Below the pieces are notes generated by a model, which ran no database searches, was not told where the DNA came from, and saw only the letters and a program-made list of their open reading frames with translations. A stretch of DNA of 64,000 nucleotides from Mucilaginibacter sp. 14171R-50. GTDB taxonomy: Bacteria > Bacteroidota > Bacteroidia > Sphingobacteriales > Sphingobacteriaceae. The stretch's first letter is position 1, and each line of letters begins with the position of its first letter. The position numbers and the translations under genes are program-made. The stretch is taken from the NCBI RefSeq assembly GCF_010093045.1, contig NZ_CP048115.1:1426001-1490000 (forward strand), given 5' to 3'. Below, piece by piece: positions 13,362 through 22,758 of the stretch.

Positions 13362-13403
13362 GATCTTTAAAAATTAAATTACTTAACAGCATTATATAAA
13401 TAG

Positions 13404-13418
13404 CATGGCAGGGCCATG
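13404..13418. terminator. Short perfect hairpin after the 136-residue gene
   Basis: CATGGC and GCCATG flank a three-base loop in the gap between two minus-strand copper genes. It has no adjacent T-run. It may be an attenuator or an RNA-stabilising stem; evidence is the inverted repeat alone. Confidence 0.3.
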
Positions 13419-13438
13419 TAAAGTTTAGCTTACAGTAA

Positions 13439-13849
13439 TCAGATCAGGAAACTTTGTATTGCGGTGCGTATATCTCTTTGCGGCGGCCATCGTCGCCCTG
13501 CTTTAATTGTCAGTTTGGATAAGCGCAAGTCAGTTACCGGGACCAGGAAAACATCGATCGGTTTACCGATGTAAATGAAAGGTGGCAGGACCAGCAAAAG
13601 ATTGGTTGCGGGAACCTGTTTTGCCTGGGAAATAAAATTATTCACAGCCCCCTGGCAGCAAAAATCTTTGGCAAGGAAAATAGGGTCGCCCGTGTTTTTT
13701 TCATGGACAACCATCGAGGAATGTTCATGATGTTCCGTATGAGAGGCTGTTTCAGCATGCTGCCGATGTGACATATGTAATGCACAGCTAAAACCGGCAA
13801 GTGTGTTCAGCAGGAATACGGTCAACAATATCAGGGCTTTAGCTCTCAT
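13439..13849 (-). CDS. Small exported His/Cys protein with W-PP motif
   Basis: This 136-residue protein has an N-terminal hydrophobic segment (residues 5-22), then CALHMSH and a His-rich stretch (HRQHAETASHTEHHEHSS). A Cys pair follows (DFCCQG, about residue 68), with a RRWPPQRD motif near the end and a tail ending SFLI. It resembles the HYC_CC_PP-like proteins of this island in outline, not in close sequence. It is the first gene of the long copper run, immediately downstream of an inverted repeat that may be the operator. Copper binding is inferred from ligands and position. Confidence 0.68.
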   Translation of the reverse strand: MRAKALILLTVFLLNTLAGFSCALHMSHRQHAETASHTEHHEHSSMVVHEKNTGDPIFLAKDFCCQGAVNNFISQAKQVPATNLLLVLPPFIYIGKPIDVFLVPVTDLRLSKLTIKAGRRWPPQRDIRTAIQSFLI

Positions 13850-15266: not shown

Positions 15267-15911
15267 TTATAACTCTCGTATAGCCCGTATCCGCCGCACA
15301 ATTTCATTAACCAATGCCGTATCCTTAATTGTTCCCCTCACAATTTGATGGCTCTCGAATTCCGGAACTTCCATAAAGGCGGCTATCTTCCCGTTAATAT
15401 GGATGTCAAAGCCGTCACCATTATTTACAATCCCGATAAAGTCATCATCGGGACCAAAGAGAAAATAAGGTGCAATGTGATATAGTGGATGTTCCATGAT
15501 GGCGACCAGTTGTTCATCGCTCATATATAATCTGCTTTCGGGATCATTAAGATCCTCCTCCCGCAGTTGAGGCTGACTATCCGTTTCATCGAACCATTCT
15601 TCTATATGGTCCTGAATGATCTTGACCAATTGCGTGATCTCGGTTTCGACAAGGGTTTGGCCATCATATCGCCATTCAAAAAAGTTCTCGTTCAAAAAAG
15701 TAAGTTTACCGACGAAACTCATGTAACTATCCATATCCGGCTCTTTGGACTTGCTTGACGCGGTAGTCGGGATCATATAAAACAACCGGAAAGCACCGGT
15801 TATATCGGTGCGCCCGTTGATGCCTGGCTGGGTCTCTGGTACGATCTTTACCTCGGCAGCACCGCCTTTTTGTTTCTTGATGGTGTAAACGATATGCTGT
15901 TTCATGTCCAT
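15267..15911 (-). CDS. Hypothetical protein, 214 residues
   Basis: This soluble protein has no signal peptide or membrane segment. It is acidic in the middle (EEWFDETDSQPQLREEDLNDPESRLYMSDEQ) and ends in an Arg-rich helix. I do not recognise the family. Its start at 15911 gives MDMKQHIVYTIKKQ. It lies upstream of the nuclease-like gene on the same strand with a 90-base gap, so the two might form a unit. No function is proposed. Confidence 0.6.
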   Translation of the reverse strand: MDMKQHIVYTIKKQKGGAAEVKIVPETQPGINGRTDITGAFRLFYMIPTTASSKSKEPDMDSYMSFVGKLTFLNENFFEWRYDGQTLVETEITQLVKIIQDHIEEWFDETDSQPQLREEDLNDPESRLYMSDEQLVAIMEHPLYHIAPYFLFGPDDDFIGIVNNGDGFDIHINGKIAAFMEVPEFESHQIVRGTIKDTALVNEIVRRIRAIREL

Positions 15912-16018
15912 AGTGTTTGAAGGTTGGACATTAGATGGCGGACGTAAATTATCGGAAAAATTTTGTGCCCTAATAAGGCCAGCACAAACCTGCCAGCGTT
16001 AAATTTGATAACAGAGTT

Positions 16019-16052
16019 TGCGGACATTTTTCCCGATCGGAAAAATGCCGCA
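16019..16052. repeat. Strong inverted repeat in the 15.9-16.1 kb gap
   Basis: Arms TGCGG-A-CATTTTTCC and GGAAAAATG-CCGCA pair over 14 bases with one bulged A and a five-base loop. No T-run follows on either strand. It lies between a hypothetical gene start (15911) and the RNA-like element at 16084, and could be a protein-binding dyad or a transcript stem. Confidence 0.4.
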
Positions 16053-16083
16053 CTTAAGATATAAAGTGGGTTCATAGTAAAAA

Positions 16084-16140
16084 TTCAAGCTAAAAATGAG
16101 ACAATAAAAATCATGGCCGAGGGTCCGGCATTAGCTTGAA
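16084..16140 (-). ncRNA. Structured 3' element, copy A
   Basis: It begins immediately after the stop codon of the 139-residue gene. On the minus strand the order is arm TTCAAGCTAA, hairpin GCCG-N6-CGGC, a TTATTGTC word, and arm TTAGCTTGAA (10 perfect pairs). A T5 run follows, so this copy could act as a terminator. The same layout is at 19652-19713 with changed but still paired bases. Confidence 0.5.
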
Positions 16141-16560
16141 TCAGATCAGAAACGTTCTTTTAAAAAGATAAATAGGTCTTGAAGAAACAAACGGCGGGCC
16201 GGTTGCCCTTGGCCAACTGACCTTATTTGTAATCTTTAACGGAATATAAAAAAAGTCGTCGTTAGGGAGTAACGGAATACCAAAGTCATTCAGGGTCAGG
16301 CTGAAATGTGTGGCACTCTTTGCGACTTCTTTGACCACATAAGTGCCGTGATGATAACAACAGTTGCAATTGCCCGAACGGCAGTCCTCATCGCTTTCTT
16401 TGTCATCTTGGCGATGATCGCTGTCTGCGGGGTGGCCGTTGTGCTTATCTTCGAACTTTGCAGCAAAATAATCGGTCGCGCAATGCAGTACACAGGCATA
16501 CGCTCCCGTTGCAAGCAACAGGTAAAAAGATATTAAAGCTATTGCGCAGATCTTTTTCAT
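16141..16560 (-). CDS. Small exported HCxxD...CxCC...PP protein (paralogue 1)
   Basis: This 139-residue protein has a hydrophobic N-terminus, then CVLHCATDYF, a His/Asp-rich linker, NCNCCYHHGTYVVKE, and WPRATGPP near the end. It is clearly paralogous to the protein at 19714-20175, which shares the VHC, CxCC, YVVKE and ATGPP blocks. Dense His, Cys and Asp suggest a periplasmic metal-binding role. It is unassigned beyond an HYC_CC_PP-like outline. A conserved structured element starts right at its stop codon. Confidence 0.72.
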   Translation of the reverse strand: MKKICAIALISFYLLLATGAYACVLHCATDYFAAKFEDKHNGHPADSDHRQDDKESDEDCRSGNCNCCYHHGTYVVKEVAKSATHFSLTLNDFGIPLLPNDDFFYIPLKITNKVSWPRATGPPFVSSRPIYLFKRTFLI

Positions 16561-16657
16561 GTGTATCGCGTCACCAGTGGCTAAAGATATTATTAATAAA
16601 CCTTTATTATGCCCGCTGCATTTAAAAAAATAAATAAGAGGCTTTACTGAAATTCCC

Positions 16658-17110
16658 TTATTTTTTCATCCGGTCCAATATGATTTTCATTTGCGCTATC
16701 TCCTTTTCCTGAGCGTCGATAATGTCTTGTGAAAGCTTCTTGACTTCGGGATCTTTTAAATGCGCCCTTTTACTGACCATGATCGCGATCGAATGATGCG
16801 GTATCATTCCCTTCATATATTGTATATCACCTATACCTGTCTGAGTGCGGACTCCGGCCAACGCCAAGATAAAAATGACAATGGCGGCAACAGTAATGAT
16901 CATGTTAAGTTTTTTATTTTGATACATCATTCGCATCATCCACAGCATTAGTAACGCCATTGCTGAGACCATCAAAAGAGTCATATAAAACCGGGTCATG
17001 TTCAGATATACATGGTCAATCAGGTCTACATTGAGGTACATAATACCGTACATTAAAACAAAGGAGCCCGCTAACATTAAAGCGAATTTTGAATAATTTC
17101 CTTTTTGCAT
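16658..17110 (-). CDS. DUF305 membrane protein
   Basis: This 150-residue protein has three hydrophobic segments (about residues 10-28, 40-60 and 70-88), then a DUF305 signature MKGMIPHHSIAIMVSKRA (about 105-122) with the conserved HH. It ends with helical KEIAQMKIILDRMKK. DUF305 is a ferritin-like family often found in copper-resistance loci, and the His/Met residues are the probable ligands. It sits beside the Csp-type copper store and is probably part of the same metal-response group. Confidence 0.88.
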   Translation of the reverse strand: MQKGNYSKFALMLAGSFVLMYGIMYLNVDLIDHVYLNMTRFYMTLLMVSAMALLMLWMMRMMYQNKKLNMIITVAAIVIFILALAGVRTQTGIGDIQYMKGMIPHHSIAIMVSKRAHLKDPEVKKLSQDIIDAQEKEIAQMKIILDRMKK

Positions 17111-17176
17111 ACTCTATTCGGTTAAAATCATTTAAAAACGATAACCTGCGTTGTTTCCACAGGTTATCTTCACATA

Positions 17177-17512
17177 TTAAGCAGCTGTTGCCATTCTTTC
17201 ACATACCACTGAACAATGGCGGCAAGCTTTTGCGCAATCCTGACAATGTTCCATTTCGTGTTTATTGCACTCTTCGGCACAGGCGCTACAAATATCAGCA
17301 CATAGATGACAAAGTTGAGCGCTGTATCCGCTGTTCAGGCTCATTAGTTCTGCTGCGGAGCGGCAAATTGCAGCGCACTCCAAATCCAGCCCGATACATT
17401 TCTTCATTTTTTTTACATCATCTTCACTTAAGCATGATGTTGCGCAATGATTGCAAGCTACAGCACAAGCGAGACATGCATCGATACATTCCTGAAATTT
17501 TTGATGTGACAT
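17177..17512 (-). CDS. Four-helix-bundle copper storage protein (Csp/DUF326-like)
   Basis: This 111-residue protein has no signal peptide, so it is probably cytosolic (Csp3-like). Thirteen or more cysteines are arranged as CxxxC pairs along predicted helices: CIDACLACAVACNHC, CIGLDLECAAIC, CHLCADICSACAEEC, CQDCAKACRHC. Such proteins load many Cu(I) ions inside a four-helix bundle. It lies between the DUF305 gene and a Met-rich outer-membrane protein. It would buffer cytosolic Cu(I), complementing CopA and CopZ. Confidence 0.92.
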   Translation of the reverse strand: MSHQKFQECIDACLACAVACNHCATSCLSEDDVKKMKKCIGLDLECAAICRSAAELMSLNSGYSAQLCHLCADICSACAEECNKHEMEHCQDCAKACRHCSVVCERMATAA

Positions 17513-17592
17513 AATTTAATTGTTTTATAGTTAGATATTCATTAGTTATTTTGACTCTGTTTAAAAATGAGCTTATACTCGAGAGATTGCTC

Positions 17593-19068
17593 TTACATTT
17601 TCATTTTCATCATTCTTGGATAAAGCCGAAGAAAAACTTCGCCGCCCAAAGGGTTTTTGCCGTAAAGTGAGTTAAGCTTACGATCAGCGGCATAATAAGT
17701 AAGCTGTCCGCCCGCTGCAAGGTTCAAGGGGCCAATCTTAAACATATCATAATTTAGTCCCAGAGTAATCGCGTTAATAGGAAATATTGTCTCATCGCCA
17801 TAGGCAACGGGGTCCAGTACCAATTCTTCGGTCGTCTTCTGTACAAATTCGTACCGGCCGTAGATCGCGAATCGCTTTAGGCGGAGATCGCCCTCCAGCA
17901 AGGCAGAATTATCTCCTTGCTGATCAGGTGTTTTATTCAACCCCCACAGCGCAGTAACGTTAACCGTCTTTTCCTCACCTAAAGGCTTGCTGTAGGTCGC
18001 CGAGGCAGTAGTGCGATAAATGTTTTCCTCCGGGTGAAGGCCTTCCGGACTCTTTATAAAACCATGCGAAACCTGTAAGGCCCAATTCGCCGACGGATTA
18101 TAATTTAAACGACCACTCCATGAATCAAACCGTGGTCTATCGAAATTATACCGGTTCTCATTAGGCTCCCTGCCAGTGAATGAGGAGACCTCGATCTTAA
18201 AATCAGAAAAGCGAAACCCTATGGTAGCCACACCGAAGGTGATATGGGTTGCATCTGACCAATGGTGGCTTATCGGTGCATCGGGATTGGACATCGCTGA
18301 CGGGCGATGCATAAAAGCAACGGGACCCAAGGCCGGCTCGCCGGGATAACCGAAATAAATGCTTAGGTCAGAGTTTTTAGAGAAGGAGTAAGCGTAGCTC
18401 GCTGATAACTCAGAAAACAGGTCGTGAGGATGCTGATGATCGATTAGCGGAAATCCTTTCCAGCTTTCCCCGGATTGAAAAAGCAATGGGTAACCGCCGC
18501 CGCCTTCAGTAAGCCGGTCAAGCGACATCATCAAGTTAAAATGCAGCAATCCGTTTTGACCAAGCTTACGTTGTGCCATTCCCATAAACCAGTTAGGCGC
18601 ATCGAATTTATCATCGCCACGGCTGCCTTTGTTGCCTAAGTCTTGTTTAGTGTAGCGCAAGGAAATATTACCATGCAGCATATAGCTCCATTTACCGTTG
18701 TTCAGCATAATGCCGTACATCGGTGAGGCATCTGGCAGCCAACTTGTCCCCGATCCGTCCCTGGTCATTGGCAGGTTAAGTGATTGCGAATTGGTCATCA
18801 TTTGCATCCCGTCCATTTTCATGCCCGCCATGGACGTGTCGCTCATCTTCATGCCATTCATTTTGTGCGACTTCATGGGCATGCTCATTTTTCTGGGCTT
18901 TTTTGTAGTATCCTGCATTTGCATGCCCCTCATTTCGTCATGTTTCGTTGGCATGTTCTTTTTCATGCCTTTGGGAGTTTTAGTAGTATCACCCATATTC
19001 ATGGTCTGGCAAAGCGTCATTATGGGCAAAACCATAAGCACGATGGTGGTTAACATTAAGTTTTTCAT
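17593..19068 (-). CDS. Met-rich outer-membrane barrel protein
   Basis: This 491-residue protein has a signal peptide ending LCQ. A Met/Lys/His-rich N-terminal stretch follows (about residues 20-95, with repeats such as GMKM and GMQM), typical of Cu(I) ligands. The remainder (about 100-485) has alternating aromatic/Gly strands suggesting a beta barrel, with LIDHQHPHDLF in the middle and YPRMMKMKM at the end. It probably resides in the outer membrane and binds copper through its Met arm. I do not recognise an assigned family. Confidence 0.7.
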   Translation of the reverse strand: MKNLMLTTIVLMVLPIMTLCQTMNMGDTTKTPKGMKKNMPTKHDEMRGMQMQDTTKKPRKMSMPMKSHKMNGMKMSDTSMAGMKMDGMQMMTNSQSLNLPMTRDGSGTSWLPDASPMYGIMLNNGKWSYMLHGNISLRYTKQDLGNKGSRGDDKFDAPNWFMGMAQRKLGQNGLLHFNLMMSLDRLTEGGGGYPLLFQSGESWKGFPLIDHQHPHDLFSELSASYAYSFSKNSDLSIYFGYPGEPALGPVAFMHRPSAMSNPDAPISHHWSDATHITFGVATIGFRFSDFKIEVSSFTGREPNENRYNFDRPRFDSWSGRLNYNPSANWALQVSHGFIKSPEGLHPEENIYRTTASATYSKPLGEEKTVNVTALWGLNKTPDQQGDNSALLEGDLRLKRFAIYGRYEFVQKTTEELVLDPVAYGDETIFPINAITLGLNYDMFKIGPLNLAAGGQLTYYAADRKLNSLYGKNPLGGEVFLRLYPRMMKMKM

Positions 19069-19080
19069 AGGATAGTGTTT

Positions 19081-19644
19081 TTAAATTTTATCAATGGCTT
19101 TGCGCTGGTGCTGTTCAGCAATCTTGAACTGGCTCGGCGTTAAACCGGTTATACTTTTGAACTGGGCAGATAAATGGGCGCTGCTGCTGTAACCCATCTT
19201 CCACGCGATCTCATTCATATTGAACTCTCCGTATTCCAGCAACTCTTTTACCTTCTCAATTTTTTGCTGAATGATGAACTTCTCAATAGTTGTGTCTTCC
19301 GACTCGGAGAACATCCGGCTGAGATAGGTATAATCTTTATGTATTTGGTCTGAAAGGTATGCTGAGAAACTAAGATGAGTATCGGTAAGGTCGCTGTGAT
19401 GCACCTTTTTAATGATCAGGTCTTTGATGCGTTGCACAACCCGATCCTTCTCATTATCAATCAACTCGAAACCAAGTAGTTTTAAGGAAGAAGAAACCGC
19501 GCTTAACTGAACCGCATCAGGCTCCGGTTCTACCACTGCATTGCCGAGTGTAATAGAAATTACCCGAAAGCCAGAGTTTTCCAATTGCTGTTTAACGACC
19601 ATAACACAACGGTCGCAAACCATATTTTTAATATATAATATCAT
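19081..19644 (-). CDS. AraC-type regulator with an HMA-like N-terminal domain
   Basis: This 187-residue protein starts at the ATG at 19644 (MILYIKNMVCDRC); a TTG start at 19656 is possible but less likely. The first 65 residues resemble a heavy-metal-associated ferredoxin fold with the CxxC pair in MVCDRC. The C-terminal 100 residues are an AraC-type helix-turn-helix domain (IAWKMGYSSSAHLSAQFKSI, then GLTPSQFK). It probably senses Cu(I) or a related ion and controls the surrounding copper genes. The direct repeat at 22810-22841 is a possible target. Confidence 0.85.
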   Translation of the reverse strand: MILYIKNMVCDRCVMVVKQQLENSGFRVISITLGNAVVEPEPDAVQLSAVSSSLKLLGFELIDNEKDRVVQRIKDLIIKKVHHSDLTDTHLSFSAYLSDQIHKDYTYLSRMFSESEDTTIEKFIIQQKIEKVKELLEYGEFNMNEIAWKMGYSSSAHLSAQFKSITGLTPSQFKIAEQHQRKAIDKI

Positions 19645-19651
19645 GTTGTAA

Positions 19652-19713
19652 TTCAAGCTTTAAGAAAGTATGGACAATAAATCGTCAGGCCGAGAATAGC
19701 GGCAAAGCTTGAA
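19652..19713 (-). ncRNA. Structured 3'/leader element, copy B
   Basis: On the minus strand the order is arm TTCAAGCTTT starting at the stop of the 153-residue gene, hairpin GCCG-N7-CGGC, the word TTATTGTC, and arm AAAGCTTGAA. The regulator's ATG follows 7 bases later. Compared with copy A the last two pairs change from AA/TT to TT/AA, preserving pairing. It may couple expression of the two genes. Confidence 0.5.
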
Positions 19714-20175
19714 TCAGATCAGGAGAGAATGGTATTTAATAAATAAAGACTGTGATTCGGAGCGCGGTGGCCCTGTCGCGTTCAACCAGGATACTTTTTC
19801 CCGGTATATTCCCACCTGCAAAGCCAGATTGGTCTGATAAGCCACCGGGAATGCAGCCACCTGCATTGCGCTTAATTGTAATTCGGGTGCGGCAGAGCTG
19901 TTTTCTTTAACTACATAATTATCATGCTTGTTACAACAACTACAATCCTTGCCTTCACCGCAAGACTTCTTATGATCCTTCCCTTTTTCATGGGCTTGAT
20001 GCTTCCCCGCCGCCGGCAAAGTTTCGTGGTCATGATCGTCATCCTGATGTGCTATAACTTCGGTTGTCGTTTTTCCAAACAAGTATTCAGCACTGCAATG
20101 TACCAGGCATACGAACATACCTGTTGTTAACAACAGGTAAAACGCAGCCAGACCAAAAGCACCGAATTTCCTCAT
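19714..20175 (-). CDS. Small exported HCxxE...CxCC...PP protein (paralogue 2)
   Basis: This 153-residue protein has a hydrophobic N-terminus, then CLVHCSAEYLF, a His/Asp/Lys linker (HQDDDHDHE, HQAHEKGKDH), CSCCNKHDNYVVKE and WLNATGPP. It is a paralogue of 16141-16560. It sits between CopZ/CopA and the AraC-type regulator, and a structured element separates it from the regulator start. A metal-binding periplasmic role is inferred from ligands and context only. Confidence 0.73.
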   Translation of the reverse strand: MRKFGAFGLAAFYLLLTTGMFVCLVHCSAEYLFGKTTTEVIAHQDDDHDHETLPAAGKHQAHEKGKDHKKSCGEGKDCSCCNKHDNYVVKENSSAAPELQLSAMQVAAFPVAYQTNLALQVGIYREKVSWLNATGPPRSESQSLFIKYHSLLI

Positions 20176-20286: not shown

Positions 20287-20499
20287 TCAGATAGATTCGG
20301 CATGGTAACCTTTAGTTTTTAAAGCAGCGATCACCTCAGCAGCGCTAAGTCCGGGCACCGTAGTTACCGTCAGTATTTTATCAGGGTTATTGGTATCGAC
20401 ATCCCACTTTTCCACGCCTTTCAAGGCATCTAATACTGGGGTTACAGTTGCAATACAGCCACCGCATTTGATATTGGTTTTGAATTTTAAAGTTTCCAT
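20287..20499 (-). CDS. HMA-domain copper chaperone (CopZ-like)
   Basis: This 70-residue protein is a single heavy-metal-associated domain, FKTNIKCGGCIATVTPVL. The CxxC pair (CGGC, residues 12-15) would bind Cu(I), and the protein is predicted cytosolic. It would deliver copper to CopA, whose gene lies 24 bases upstream on the same strand. Bacteroidota versions with KCGGC are common next to CopA. Length and position fit a chaperone. Confidence 0.9.
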   Translation of the reverse strand: METLKFKTNIKCGGCIATVTPVLDALKGVEKWDVDTNNPDKILTVTTVPGLSAAEVIAALKTKGYHAESI

Positions 20500-20523: not shown

Positions 20524-22758
20524 TTAAAGATTAAGTTTTGAAAATTTCAGTCTCAGGCTGTTGCTGACCACCGATACAGAGCTTAAAGCCATAGCCGCGC
20601 CTGCAATCATTGGGTTCAGTAAAAAGCCGTTGATAGGGTATAATATTCCGGCTGCAATGGGAATGCCGATCAGGTTATAAATAAATGCCCAGAACAGGTT
20701 TTGACGTATTGTGCGAACCGTGAGCTTGGAAAGCCTTAAGGCTTTGGGCACCTGCCGGAGATCAGAAGAGACCAAGGTGATTTTGGCTACATCCATCGCA
20801 ATATCGGAGCCTTTCCCCATTGCTATGCTCACATCGGCTTGTGCTAATGCCTGGCTGTCATTAATCCCGTCGCCGATCATGGCCACAATTTTGCCGCTTG
20901 CCTGTAAAGACCTGATGAAATCAGATTTACCGGATGGCAGCGTATCTGCCTCGAAATGATCGATACGTGCCTGCTTTGCAACCGCTGTTGCGGTTTCCGC
21001 GTTATCACCGGTCAGCATATAGACTTCGATACCTTGTTTTTTTAATGCTTTAACAGCGTCGGCTGAGCCCGCTTTGATCTGGTCCGTGATGGCAGCTACA
21101 GCCAGTACCTGCTTGTCATCCGCAAAATAAATAACCGTTTTTGCCTGGCCTGAATAAGAAGCTATTGGCTCTTTCAGATCATCAGGGACAGCGATGCTTT
21201 TTTCATCGATCAGTTTATGGCTTCCGGCTAAATACCCCGTTCCATTAAACACTGCTTCCACGCCTCTGCCTGTTAAGCTGCTAAAGGATGAAACTTTTGC
21301 CGATTTTACATCAAAAGATCTTAAGTAAGCCACTATCGCGTCAGCCAACGGATGTTCAGACCGTTGTTCCATCGCTAAAAAGATGCCTTGCAGTTTATCC
21401 TGATCGTCTTTGGCGCCGCCTGCCCATATTAGCTCAGTAACGACCGGTTTTCCTTCGGTTATTGTTCCTGTCTTATCTAATACCACCGCGTTTACCCGGT
21501 GGCCCAATTCCAATGCCTCTGCATCTTTAATGAGAATACCGTTTTCTGCACCCCGGCCTATCCCAACCATTATGGCCGTCGGTGTAGCCAGACCTAAAGC
21601 ACAGGGGCATGCAATTACCAATACCGTTACCATCGCCAATAAGCCCTGTGTAAAAGCATGCTGTTCGCCGAACAGCAGCCAGGCCCCCAAGCTTAACAAG
21701 GCGATCAATATCACGACCGGCACAAAGATGCCTGCGATCTTGTCCACCAGTTTTTGTACCGGCGCTTTGGAGCCTTGCGCATCCTGTACCAGCTGGATGA
21801 TTTGCGCAAGCAAGGTACTTCCTCCCACTTTTTCGGCAGTAAAGCGAAAACTCCCTTTTTGGTTTAAGGTTCCTGTAAAAACTTTTGCGCCCTGTTTTTT
21901 CTCAACCGCTACGGGCTCCCCGGTAATCATGCTTTCGTCCACATAGGAATGGCCGTCATAGACCTCGCCATCCACCGGGATCTTTTCTCCGGGACGTACC
22001 AGCAATTGGTCACCGACCTTTACGTCGGCTATTGGCGTTTCTATTTCCCCTTGCAGCGTGATCAGCATGACCATTTTGGGTTGCAGGCCGATCAGTTTTT
22101 TGATAGCGGAAGAAGTGTTTGATTTCGCCCGTTCTTCCAGCAGTTTACCCAACAGGATAAAAACCACGATCACGGAAGCTGCTTCAAAATAGACATGCGG
22201 CTGCAGTCCCTGTCTCAGCCAGAATTGAGGATAAAAGGTATTAAAGGCGCTAAACAAAAAGGCGATGCCGGTACTTAGTGCAACCAGGGTGTCCATATTG
22301 GCCTTACCGTGCCTGGCTTGTTTAAAAGCGCCCGAAAAAAAGCCTTTCCCGGTTATAAATAATACCGGTGCAGTCAGCGCCAGCATGATATAGTTCCTGT
22401 ACGGCATTTCGTTAAAAACCATCCCGATCAGCACGACAGGAATAGTTAATAGGGTTGCCCAGGTCATATTCCTTTTTAATTCTTTATAATGATCTTGCTG
22501 AACTTCCTCTTGTTTTTCTTTTGCGTTTGCGGTATCGACGATCAGGTCATAACCAATGGACTGAACTGCTTTTTGCAGGGTGGCAGGTTCCGTTATGCCG
22601 GGGTGAAAGGCTACTTTCACCGATTGGCTGGCATAGTTCACCTCGGCTTTATCCACACCGTTTTGTGCCCCAAGTATGGATTCTACGCTTATTGCGCAGG
22701 AGGCACAACTCATCCCGGTTACCGGTAGGGTGAGTGTTTGTAATTCTTGTACTGCCAT
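20524..22758 (-). CDS. copA: Copper-exporting P1B-1 ATPase (CopA)
   Basis: This 744-residue enzyme pumps Cu(I) from cytosol to periplasm. It has one N-terminal HMA domain ([13 protein letters not shown], about residues 13-25), eight membrane segments and [12 protein letters not shown] at the transport site. The catalytic core has DKTGTIT, TGEP in the actuator domain, HP in SEHPLADAI, and [14 protein letters not shown]. CopZ follows, and a divergent Cys-rich gene lies 167 bases away. The CPC plus MxxSS-type C-terminal motif ([14 protein letters not shown]) is as expected for CopA. Regulation may involve the direct repeat at 22810. Confidence 0.95.

Follow-up and report, generated by a model that had tools for sequence, protein, structure and literature searches.

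Examination of a 64,000-nt stretch of the genome of Mucilaginibacter sp. 14171R-50 (contig NZ_CP048115.1, positions 1,426,001 to 1,490,000; here called the window) revealed two copies of a folded RNA element, each directly behind a gene for a small Cys/His-rich protein (here named HYC_CC_PP-like). Clusters of copper-type genes in Mucilaginibacter and in some Pedobacter strains carry the element, and its position between two reading frames suggests a probable link that makes translation of the second gene depend on that of the first. Its overall fold is a stem, P1, enclosing two hairpins, P2 and P3. We see about an even chance that this predicted three-way junction, lying directly 3' of an HYC_CC_PP-like gene, acts as an intercistronic translational-coupling structure in a polycistronic mRNA. 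"Copper-type" is a label taken from the neighboring genes, which encode small Cys/His-rich proteins, an HMA-type protein, and a P-type ATPase.

Two copies directly behind paralogous genes

The element copies and the genes that flank them are as follows.

19652..19713, minus strand: copy B; P1 19713-19704 / 19661-19652; P2 GCCG 19703-19700 / CGGC 19692-19689
19686-19682 / 19677-19673, minus strand: P3 of copy B, GACGA / TTGTC, the second inner hairpin
16084..16140, minus strand: copy A; P1 16140-16131 / 16093-16084; P2 GCCG 16129-16126 / CGGC 16119-16116
19714..20175, minus strand: HYC_CC_PP-like gene for a small Cys/His-rich protein of 153 aa, lying upstream of copy B with its stop adjoining P1
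16141..16560, minus strand: HYC_CC_PP-like paralogue, 139 aa, upstream of copy A
19081..19644, minus strand: AraC-type regulator, 187 aa; HTH_18 at 1.7e-15, HMA-like N terminus by its NMVCDRC motif
15902..16075, minus strand: putative 57-codon open frame; its TGA overlaps an ATG of the next gene
15267..15911, minus strand: 214-aa gene downstream of the 57-codon frame

A previous sequence-only reading had described a 10-bp outer stem, a GCCG...CGGC hairpin, and the word TTATTGTC after the stops of two paralogous genes, and all of these were found in both copies. The minus strand is the sense strand of both, and each begins 0 nt after the TGA of its upstream gene (stop codons at 16143-16141 for copy A and 19716-19714 for copy B), so that the 5' arm of P1 comprises bases 1 to 10 after the stop. 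Copy B runs in the order TTCAAGCTTT, GCCG hairpin, GACGA hairpin, linker, and AAAGCTTGAA. Copy A, with P1 arms TTCAAGCTAA/TTAGCTTGAA, follows the same plan except that its P3 is weak. From the end of P1 it is 7 nt to the ATG of the AraC-type gene in copy B, as had been read, and 8 nt to the ATG of the 57-codon frame in copy A. This frame and P3 are the two parts of the layout that the previous reading had missed.

A strict inverted-repeat pattern matched twice in the window, against a mean of 0.00 in 100 shuffles, and also twice in the whole 4.5-Mb genome, both times at the window copies. Folding z-scores were -3.0 for copy A and -3.5 for copy B. The covariance-model matches lie at 1442074-1442143 of G000:C1 for copy A (E value of 9.0e-10) and at 1445642-1445716 for copy B (E value of 4.4e-13), both window copies being among the 12 from which the first model was built. 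A search of the window against Rfam 15 gave no match at the gathering score.

Pairing is conserved among homologous loci

Homologues lend strong support to the proposal of a structured RNA whose pairs change in a compensatory way. In an alignment of 40 copies, fitted to the covariance model, 82.7% of the cells are paired and two-sided changes occur in 16 of the 20 pairs; none of 500 shuffles reached the observed value on any of five measures, and controls with a slid partner gave 29 to 49% pairing. Broken down by helix, paired cells amount to 93.5% in the eight outer pairs of P1, 95.9% in P2, and 68.5% in P3. The two innermost pairs of P1 are those at which the window copies differ (AA/TT versus TT/AA) and on which the previous reading had relied. 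The exchange is present, but it is weak evidence, with only 41.3% of the cells paired at these two positions; the support comes from the other eight P1 pairs and from P2.

An alignment of 22 diverse copies made from sequence only gave 93.1% paired cells in P1 with two-sided changes in five of eight pairs, values that 0 to 2 of 500 shuffles reached. A MAFFT alignment of the 12 pattern-selected copies showed six pairs with two-sided change, a number reached by 199 of 500 shuffles; covariation is weaker here because the search pattern had fixed most of P1. Variants of P1 include TTCGGGC/GCCCGAA, TTTAAGC/GCTTTAA, and TTTGAGTCA/TGACTTAAA. Counted over all helices, the sense strand has 52 G-T cells against 16 A-C cells, which fits its acting as RNA; the excess stems from P2 and P3, the outer P1 alone having five of each. 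With the first model, the sense strand likewise scored far above the antisense strand. By eye, the 3' strand of P3 is conserved while its 5' partner is variable, and P3 contains a conserved YTATTGYC. Judged by this pattern of substitutions, the element is a structured RNA with strong covariation that is absent from Rfam 15.

The element belongs to the upstream gene and has a narrow range

The strict pattern was found in 12 of 149 Mucilaginibacter genomes, while a reversed control pattern was found in 4 of 149 with one match in each; three of the strict-pattern loci (L003, L007, and L013) look like chance. The first covariance model (R1), built from 12 copies, then gave 35 matches in 26 of the 149 genomes, every one of them located exactly at an HYC_CC_PP-like gene's stop, as determined by intersection with a protein profile. 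This 35/35 is not a wholly independent test, since the profile (A4) was built from 20 proteins upstream of model matches plus the third paralogue of the window, and R1 includes 3 + 10 flanking bases with the TGA among them. Matches at stops are thus favored, a bias inherited by A6 and by the second model (R2, built from 40 copies). Direct reading of 30 model matches showed that each starts at the stop of an HYC-like gene. The profile itself placed HYC-like genes at 93 sites in 55 of the 149 genomes, of which 91 were carried forward and two near-identical ones omitted.

The element belongs to the upstream HYC-like gene and not to the regulator. Among the 30 regulator loci returned by the search, 14 follow an HYC-like gene and all of these have the element, whereas in 13 the regulator is preceded by a short HMA-type gene, so called from its C terminus, at a distance of -4 to 24 nt and P1 is lacking. 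The effective stop-to-start distance is therefore short in those 13 loci too. Conversely, the frame that comes after the HYC-like gene varies, being the AraC-type regulator, the 57- to 60-codon frame (5 loci), or a 276-aa gene (2 loci, one with P1). Genomes carry one to three copies, and types A and B stand side by side in other genomes as well (L042/L021, L045/L029, and L025/L048).

Among 351 family genomes, R1 matched 21 and R2 matched 26, in each case with two outside the genus. R2 matched 4 of 295 class-level genomes, three of them in the genus; the other, a weak match in a 0.5-Mb genome (E value of 0.0057), was taken as chance. Named carriers outside the genus are Albibacterium bauzanense, Pedobacter sp. 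Leaf176, P. westerhofensis, P. gandavensis, and Pedobacter sp. PLR. One further match (G140:C41, E value of 0.03, L232) was not at any HYC-like gene listed by the profile, and the 3' end of Pedobacter nutrimenti (L192) was left out, as its HYC-like frame ends early. The taxonomic range is narrow as far as searched; the large covariance-model searches (149, 351, and 295 genomes) used stricter filters, so weak copies may be missed. As a family-wide feature of HYC_CC_PP genes the element was rejected, the mean P1 score of 29 distinct distant 3' ends being 0.272 against 0.274 when shuffled.

In two loci from other families of the class (L150 and L158), a stem begins at the stop of an HYC_CC_PP gene and is followed 5 to 6 nt later by an ATG. 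At L150 a third helix ends CTATTGTC and the next gene resembles a TonB-type receptor. These two are too few to count, and L158 was read by eye.

Stop-to-start geometry

The gaps between HYC-like genes and a near downstream start were compared by predicted ensemble pairing, taking the 36 distinct gaps retrieved and counting identical 3' ends once. Closing of the gap (score of >0.5) was predicted for 34 of the 36, compared with 8% for shuffles, and in these 34 it leaves 5 to 11 unpaired bases before the ATG over gap lengths of 61 to 92 nt. In 29 of the 36 gaps the very first base behind the stop is paired, and in 35 pairing begins within bases 1 to 3, although in L101 the pairing near the stop is a local hairpin and not P1. 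The Pedobacter gaps, 90 to 92 nt long, contain an extra hairpin, yet P1 remains flush with the stop and ends 6 nt before the ATG. In contrast, only 2 of 59 co-oriented gaps of 45 to 100 nt from 464 kb of the same genome close (shuffles, 4.7%), namely, the gap of copy B and one in which a hairpin lies close to a start. Closing as a general spacer feature of this genome was thus rejected.

We further divided 64 distinct main-type 3' ends into near loci, where the next frame begins no more than 85 nt away, and far loci, leaving out the third-paralogue group (23 distinct). P1 was predicted in 32 of 34 near loci and in 13 of 30 far loci (Fisher P value of 1.6e-5, counts uncorrected for relatedness), against a baseline of about 20% for shuffled sequences. 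One locus (L091) counts as near only through a spurious frame, and its reassignment gives 32 of 33 near and 13 of 31 far. In L041 and L101 the partner picked by a simple stem finder differs from that of the model, and the stems found by this finder in L092 and L109 have low pairing probabilities (0.19 and 0.07). By eye, the regulator looks recently degenerate in the far loci L034 and L037. In L038, L039, L092, and L109 the next start lies 49 to 54 nt after P1, with a small hairpin of the GATGG..CCATC type between them. A hairpin of this type downstream of the element was also seen in L091; in four of these five loci it stands ahead of an outer-membrane-type gene.

A proposed coupling structure and its alternatives

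The previous reading had suggested a metal-linked attenuator or a coupling element. The attenuator is not supported, there being no conserved U-tract after the stem, and the metal link is suggested by the gene context; the coupling element is the best fit to the geometry. As a coupling structure, the folded P1 would cover the region where translation of the next gene begins. The mRNA channel of a ribosome at the stop codon encloses the following 7 to 10 bases, and as these are bases of the 5' arm, a ribosome finishing the upstream gene would open P1 and thereby license the next start. The ATG might then be used by a new ribosome (RNA unfolding) or by the terminating ribosome itself through short-hop reinitiation over what are effectively 5 to 11 nt. 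The regulator, or the small frame together with its overlapping gene, would be synthesized only in coordination with the Cys/His-rich protein. According to the available excerpt of one study (PMC6728339), neither initiation nor reinitiation in Bacteroidetes seems to rely on Shine-Dalgarno pairing, which makes a structural coupler plausible; coupling in general is described, in the accessible part of another (PMC12548453), as working best over short distances and as being affected by RNA structure.

Several observations weigh against this coupling interpretation. Near gaps L101 and L115 do not close, and three of the 30 regulator loci (L057, L065, and L071) lack the element without having a short gap instead, as they follow something else at 61 to 97 nt. 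In the small frame behind copy A, changes at third positions are not in excess (5 loci). The near/far contrast is uncorrected for relatedness, and the first model was derived from near-type copies. P1 is retained in far loci above the shuffled baseline, in places with compensatory changes although the next frame lies 302 nt (L040/L082) or 249 nt (L106) past the stop, and the metagenome-assembled genomes L196 and L197 keep TTCAAGC/GCTTGAA with the next frame at 161 to 162 nt. Finally, coupling alone leaves P2, P3, and the conserved YTATTGYC unexplained.

Retention of P1 in far loci keeps a role at the 3' end of the upstream mRNA a serious rival, although we consider it distinctly less probable than coupling. 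The element would here be an exonuclease shield or processing site that sets the level of the small protein relative to the downstream genes, with the nearby start being incidental. This agrees with an element that follows the HYC-like gene whatever comes next and with the compensatory changes at far loci, which extend to L038 and L039. It predicts neither the spacing of 5 to 11 nt nor the near/far contrast, nor the closing kept in the 90- to 92-nt Pedobacter gaps. A switch controlled by a ligand or protein, in which P2, P3, and YTATTGYC would form the sensor (for a metal ion or an RNA-binding protein) and P1 the actuator over the downstream start, is rather unlikely. The metal-type gene context and the conserved 3' strand of P3 beside its variable 5' partner speak for it, whereas Rfam holds no match, P3 is the weakest helix except for the inner end of P1, and the element is unlike the Bacteroides RbpB motif GUAGGAUA as given in the available part of PMC12119571.

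The remaining explanations are far less probable. T5 after copy A, noted in the previous reading, is present, and L025 has it too; a terminator scan moreover flagged P2 of copy A, a hairpin with a diffuse T-rich tail behind it. An intrinsic terminator or transcription attenuator is nevertheless very unlikely, since T5 follows only two of the five A-type elements (L044 and L025, but not L030, L042, or L045) and therefore marks no conserved terminator tract; elsewhere P1 is followed by mixed A/T sequence, often with an ATG, and the scan flagged nothing terminator-like at copy B. A palindrome acting at the DNA level, as a protein binding site or mobile-element repeat, would account for the sequence conservation of the outer arms TTCAAGC/GCTTGAA and for the equal G-T and A-C counts in P1. 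We judge it slightly less probable again, given one to three copies per genome always at one gene type, the compensatory changes, wobbles that favor the sense strand over all helices, and the far higher sense-strand model score. Dispersal like that of repetitive extragenic palindromes (REPs), with many copies in unrelated places, is not what was found with 2 copies in the genome itself and 35 of 35 genus matches at one gene type. Recent duplication plus chance is suggested by two copies 3.5 kb apart behind paralogues; it is extremely improbable in view of paralogues with 33% identity, both types side by side in other genomes, and covariation. Homologous loci thus show neither a lack of conserved pairing nor a similarity that recent duplication and chance would explain. 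A selenocysteine or readthrough signal was rejected, as the stop is TAA in L017 and the frames past the two window stops end at different places.

Beyond translational coupling as such, it is conceivable, if improbable, that the ribosome finishing the secreted-type, metal-binding-type protein (C terminus SLLI/SFLI) is itself the sensor: its pausing or speed at the stop would set the amount of copper-type regulator, and the junction spacer would erase the stop-start distance. If true, this would be a structural, Shine-Dalgarno-free coupling device. How neighboring genes couple in Bacteroidota, apparently without Shine-Dalgarno use, is a question on which a compact, covariation-supported element bears. 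As natural variants keep the stop-flush and 5- to 11-nt rule over gaps of 61 to 92 nt, structural coupling becomes directly testable in environmental bacteria, and the element suggests a design for two-gene cassettes in Bacteroidota.

Genes of the cluster

Further features of the window around the two copies are the following.

13439..13849, minus strand: third, diverged HYC_CC_PP-like paralogue, 136 aa; NF047658 at an E value of 0.03 and 14.8 bits, below the 28-bit cut-off
13362..13438, minus strand: 77-nt gap after the third paralogue; TTACT/AGTAA closing stem and ATGGC..GCCAT-type hairpin, ahead of a DUF3347 gene
20287-20499: HMA-type protein; CopZ-type matches, all below their cut-offs
20524-22758: P-type ATPase carrying a CPC motif

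The CPC motif is typical of heavy-metal pumps. The proteins upstream of copies A and B, which share 33% identity, both have a hydrophobic N terminus, a Cys/His-rich middle, a W...GPP motif, and a C terminus ending in TFLI or SLLI. Neither had a Pfam match at an E value of 0.001 or an NCBIfam match at 0.1, and neither exceeded the 28-bit cut-off of HYC_CC_PP (NF047658); the group was named HYC_CC_PP-like because the third paralogue touches this family below its cut-off. The SLLI/SFLI/FLI-type C terminus before the stop is conserved in HYC_CC_PP-like and many distant HYC_CC_PP proteins (L138 to L167), including ones without such a 3' structure.

The frame after copy A shows little sequence conservation, although it is open in five of five loci (57 to 60 codons) and each time ends in an ATGA overlap with the next gene. 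As a conserved protein it was rejected for want of a third-position excess; it is perhaps a translated bridge between the element and the next gene. The gap at 13362-13438 (L116) gave no covariance-model match and is a possible degenerate relative of the element. Among the third-paralogue gaps (several of L116 to L131), many have a hairpin of the ATGGC..GCCAT type and often a short AT-rich stem at the stop. A terminator-like hairpin of 11 bp followed by GTTTTTAAAT lies at 17168-17140 on the minus strand, just after a Cys-rich gene at 17177-17512.

Comparison with known systems

Like riboswitches and other structured leader RNAs in Rfam, the element is a small multihelix RNA by a start codon in a metal-type cluster; unlike them, it is intercistronic, attached to the upstream gene, and without an Rfam match. 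Arrest-peptide coupling of the SecM/MifM type, taken here from general knowledge, offers a parallel in a small protein with a hydrophobic N terminus and a conserved C terminus, encoded just upstream of a structure that covers the next start. Distant HYC_CC_PP proteins, however, have similar C termini, and their 3' ends, taken as a set, lack such a structure. A literature search in one library yielded nothing on HYC_CC_PP or "copper riboswitch" and nothing relevant for arrest peptides, three-way junctions, Mucilaginibacter/copper, or AraC/HMA, and the available portions of the coupling literature (PMC6728339, PMC12548453, and PMC5972666) contain no description of such a stop-to-start spacer.

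Termination-reinitiation at overlapping stops and starts, e.g., ATGA, as treated in the excerpt of PMC6728339, resembles the present arrangement in that stop and start are effectively 5 to 11 nt apart, whereas the true spacer here is 61 to 92 nt and must fold away. Closest in principle is the RNA-unfolding coupling ("UTNI") of atpHA, rplJL, the infC operon, and phage f1 VII/IX, as far as it is set out in the accessible parts of PMC6728339 and PMC12548453. There, too, a structure over the downstream initiation region can be opened by the ribosome of the upstream gene. In the present element, all of the pairing falls within the spacer, beginning right behind the stop, and forms a closed three-way junction kept by covariation, with the coupling itself being predicted. 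Taken together, the element is most likely a coupling structure whose design is new but whose principle is not.

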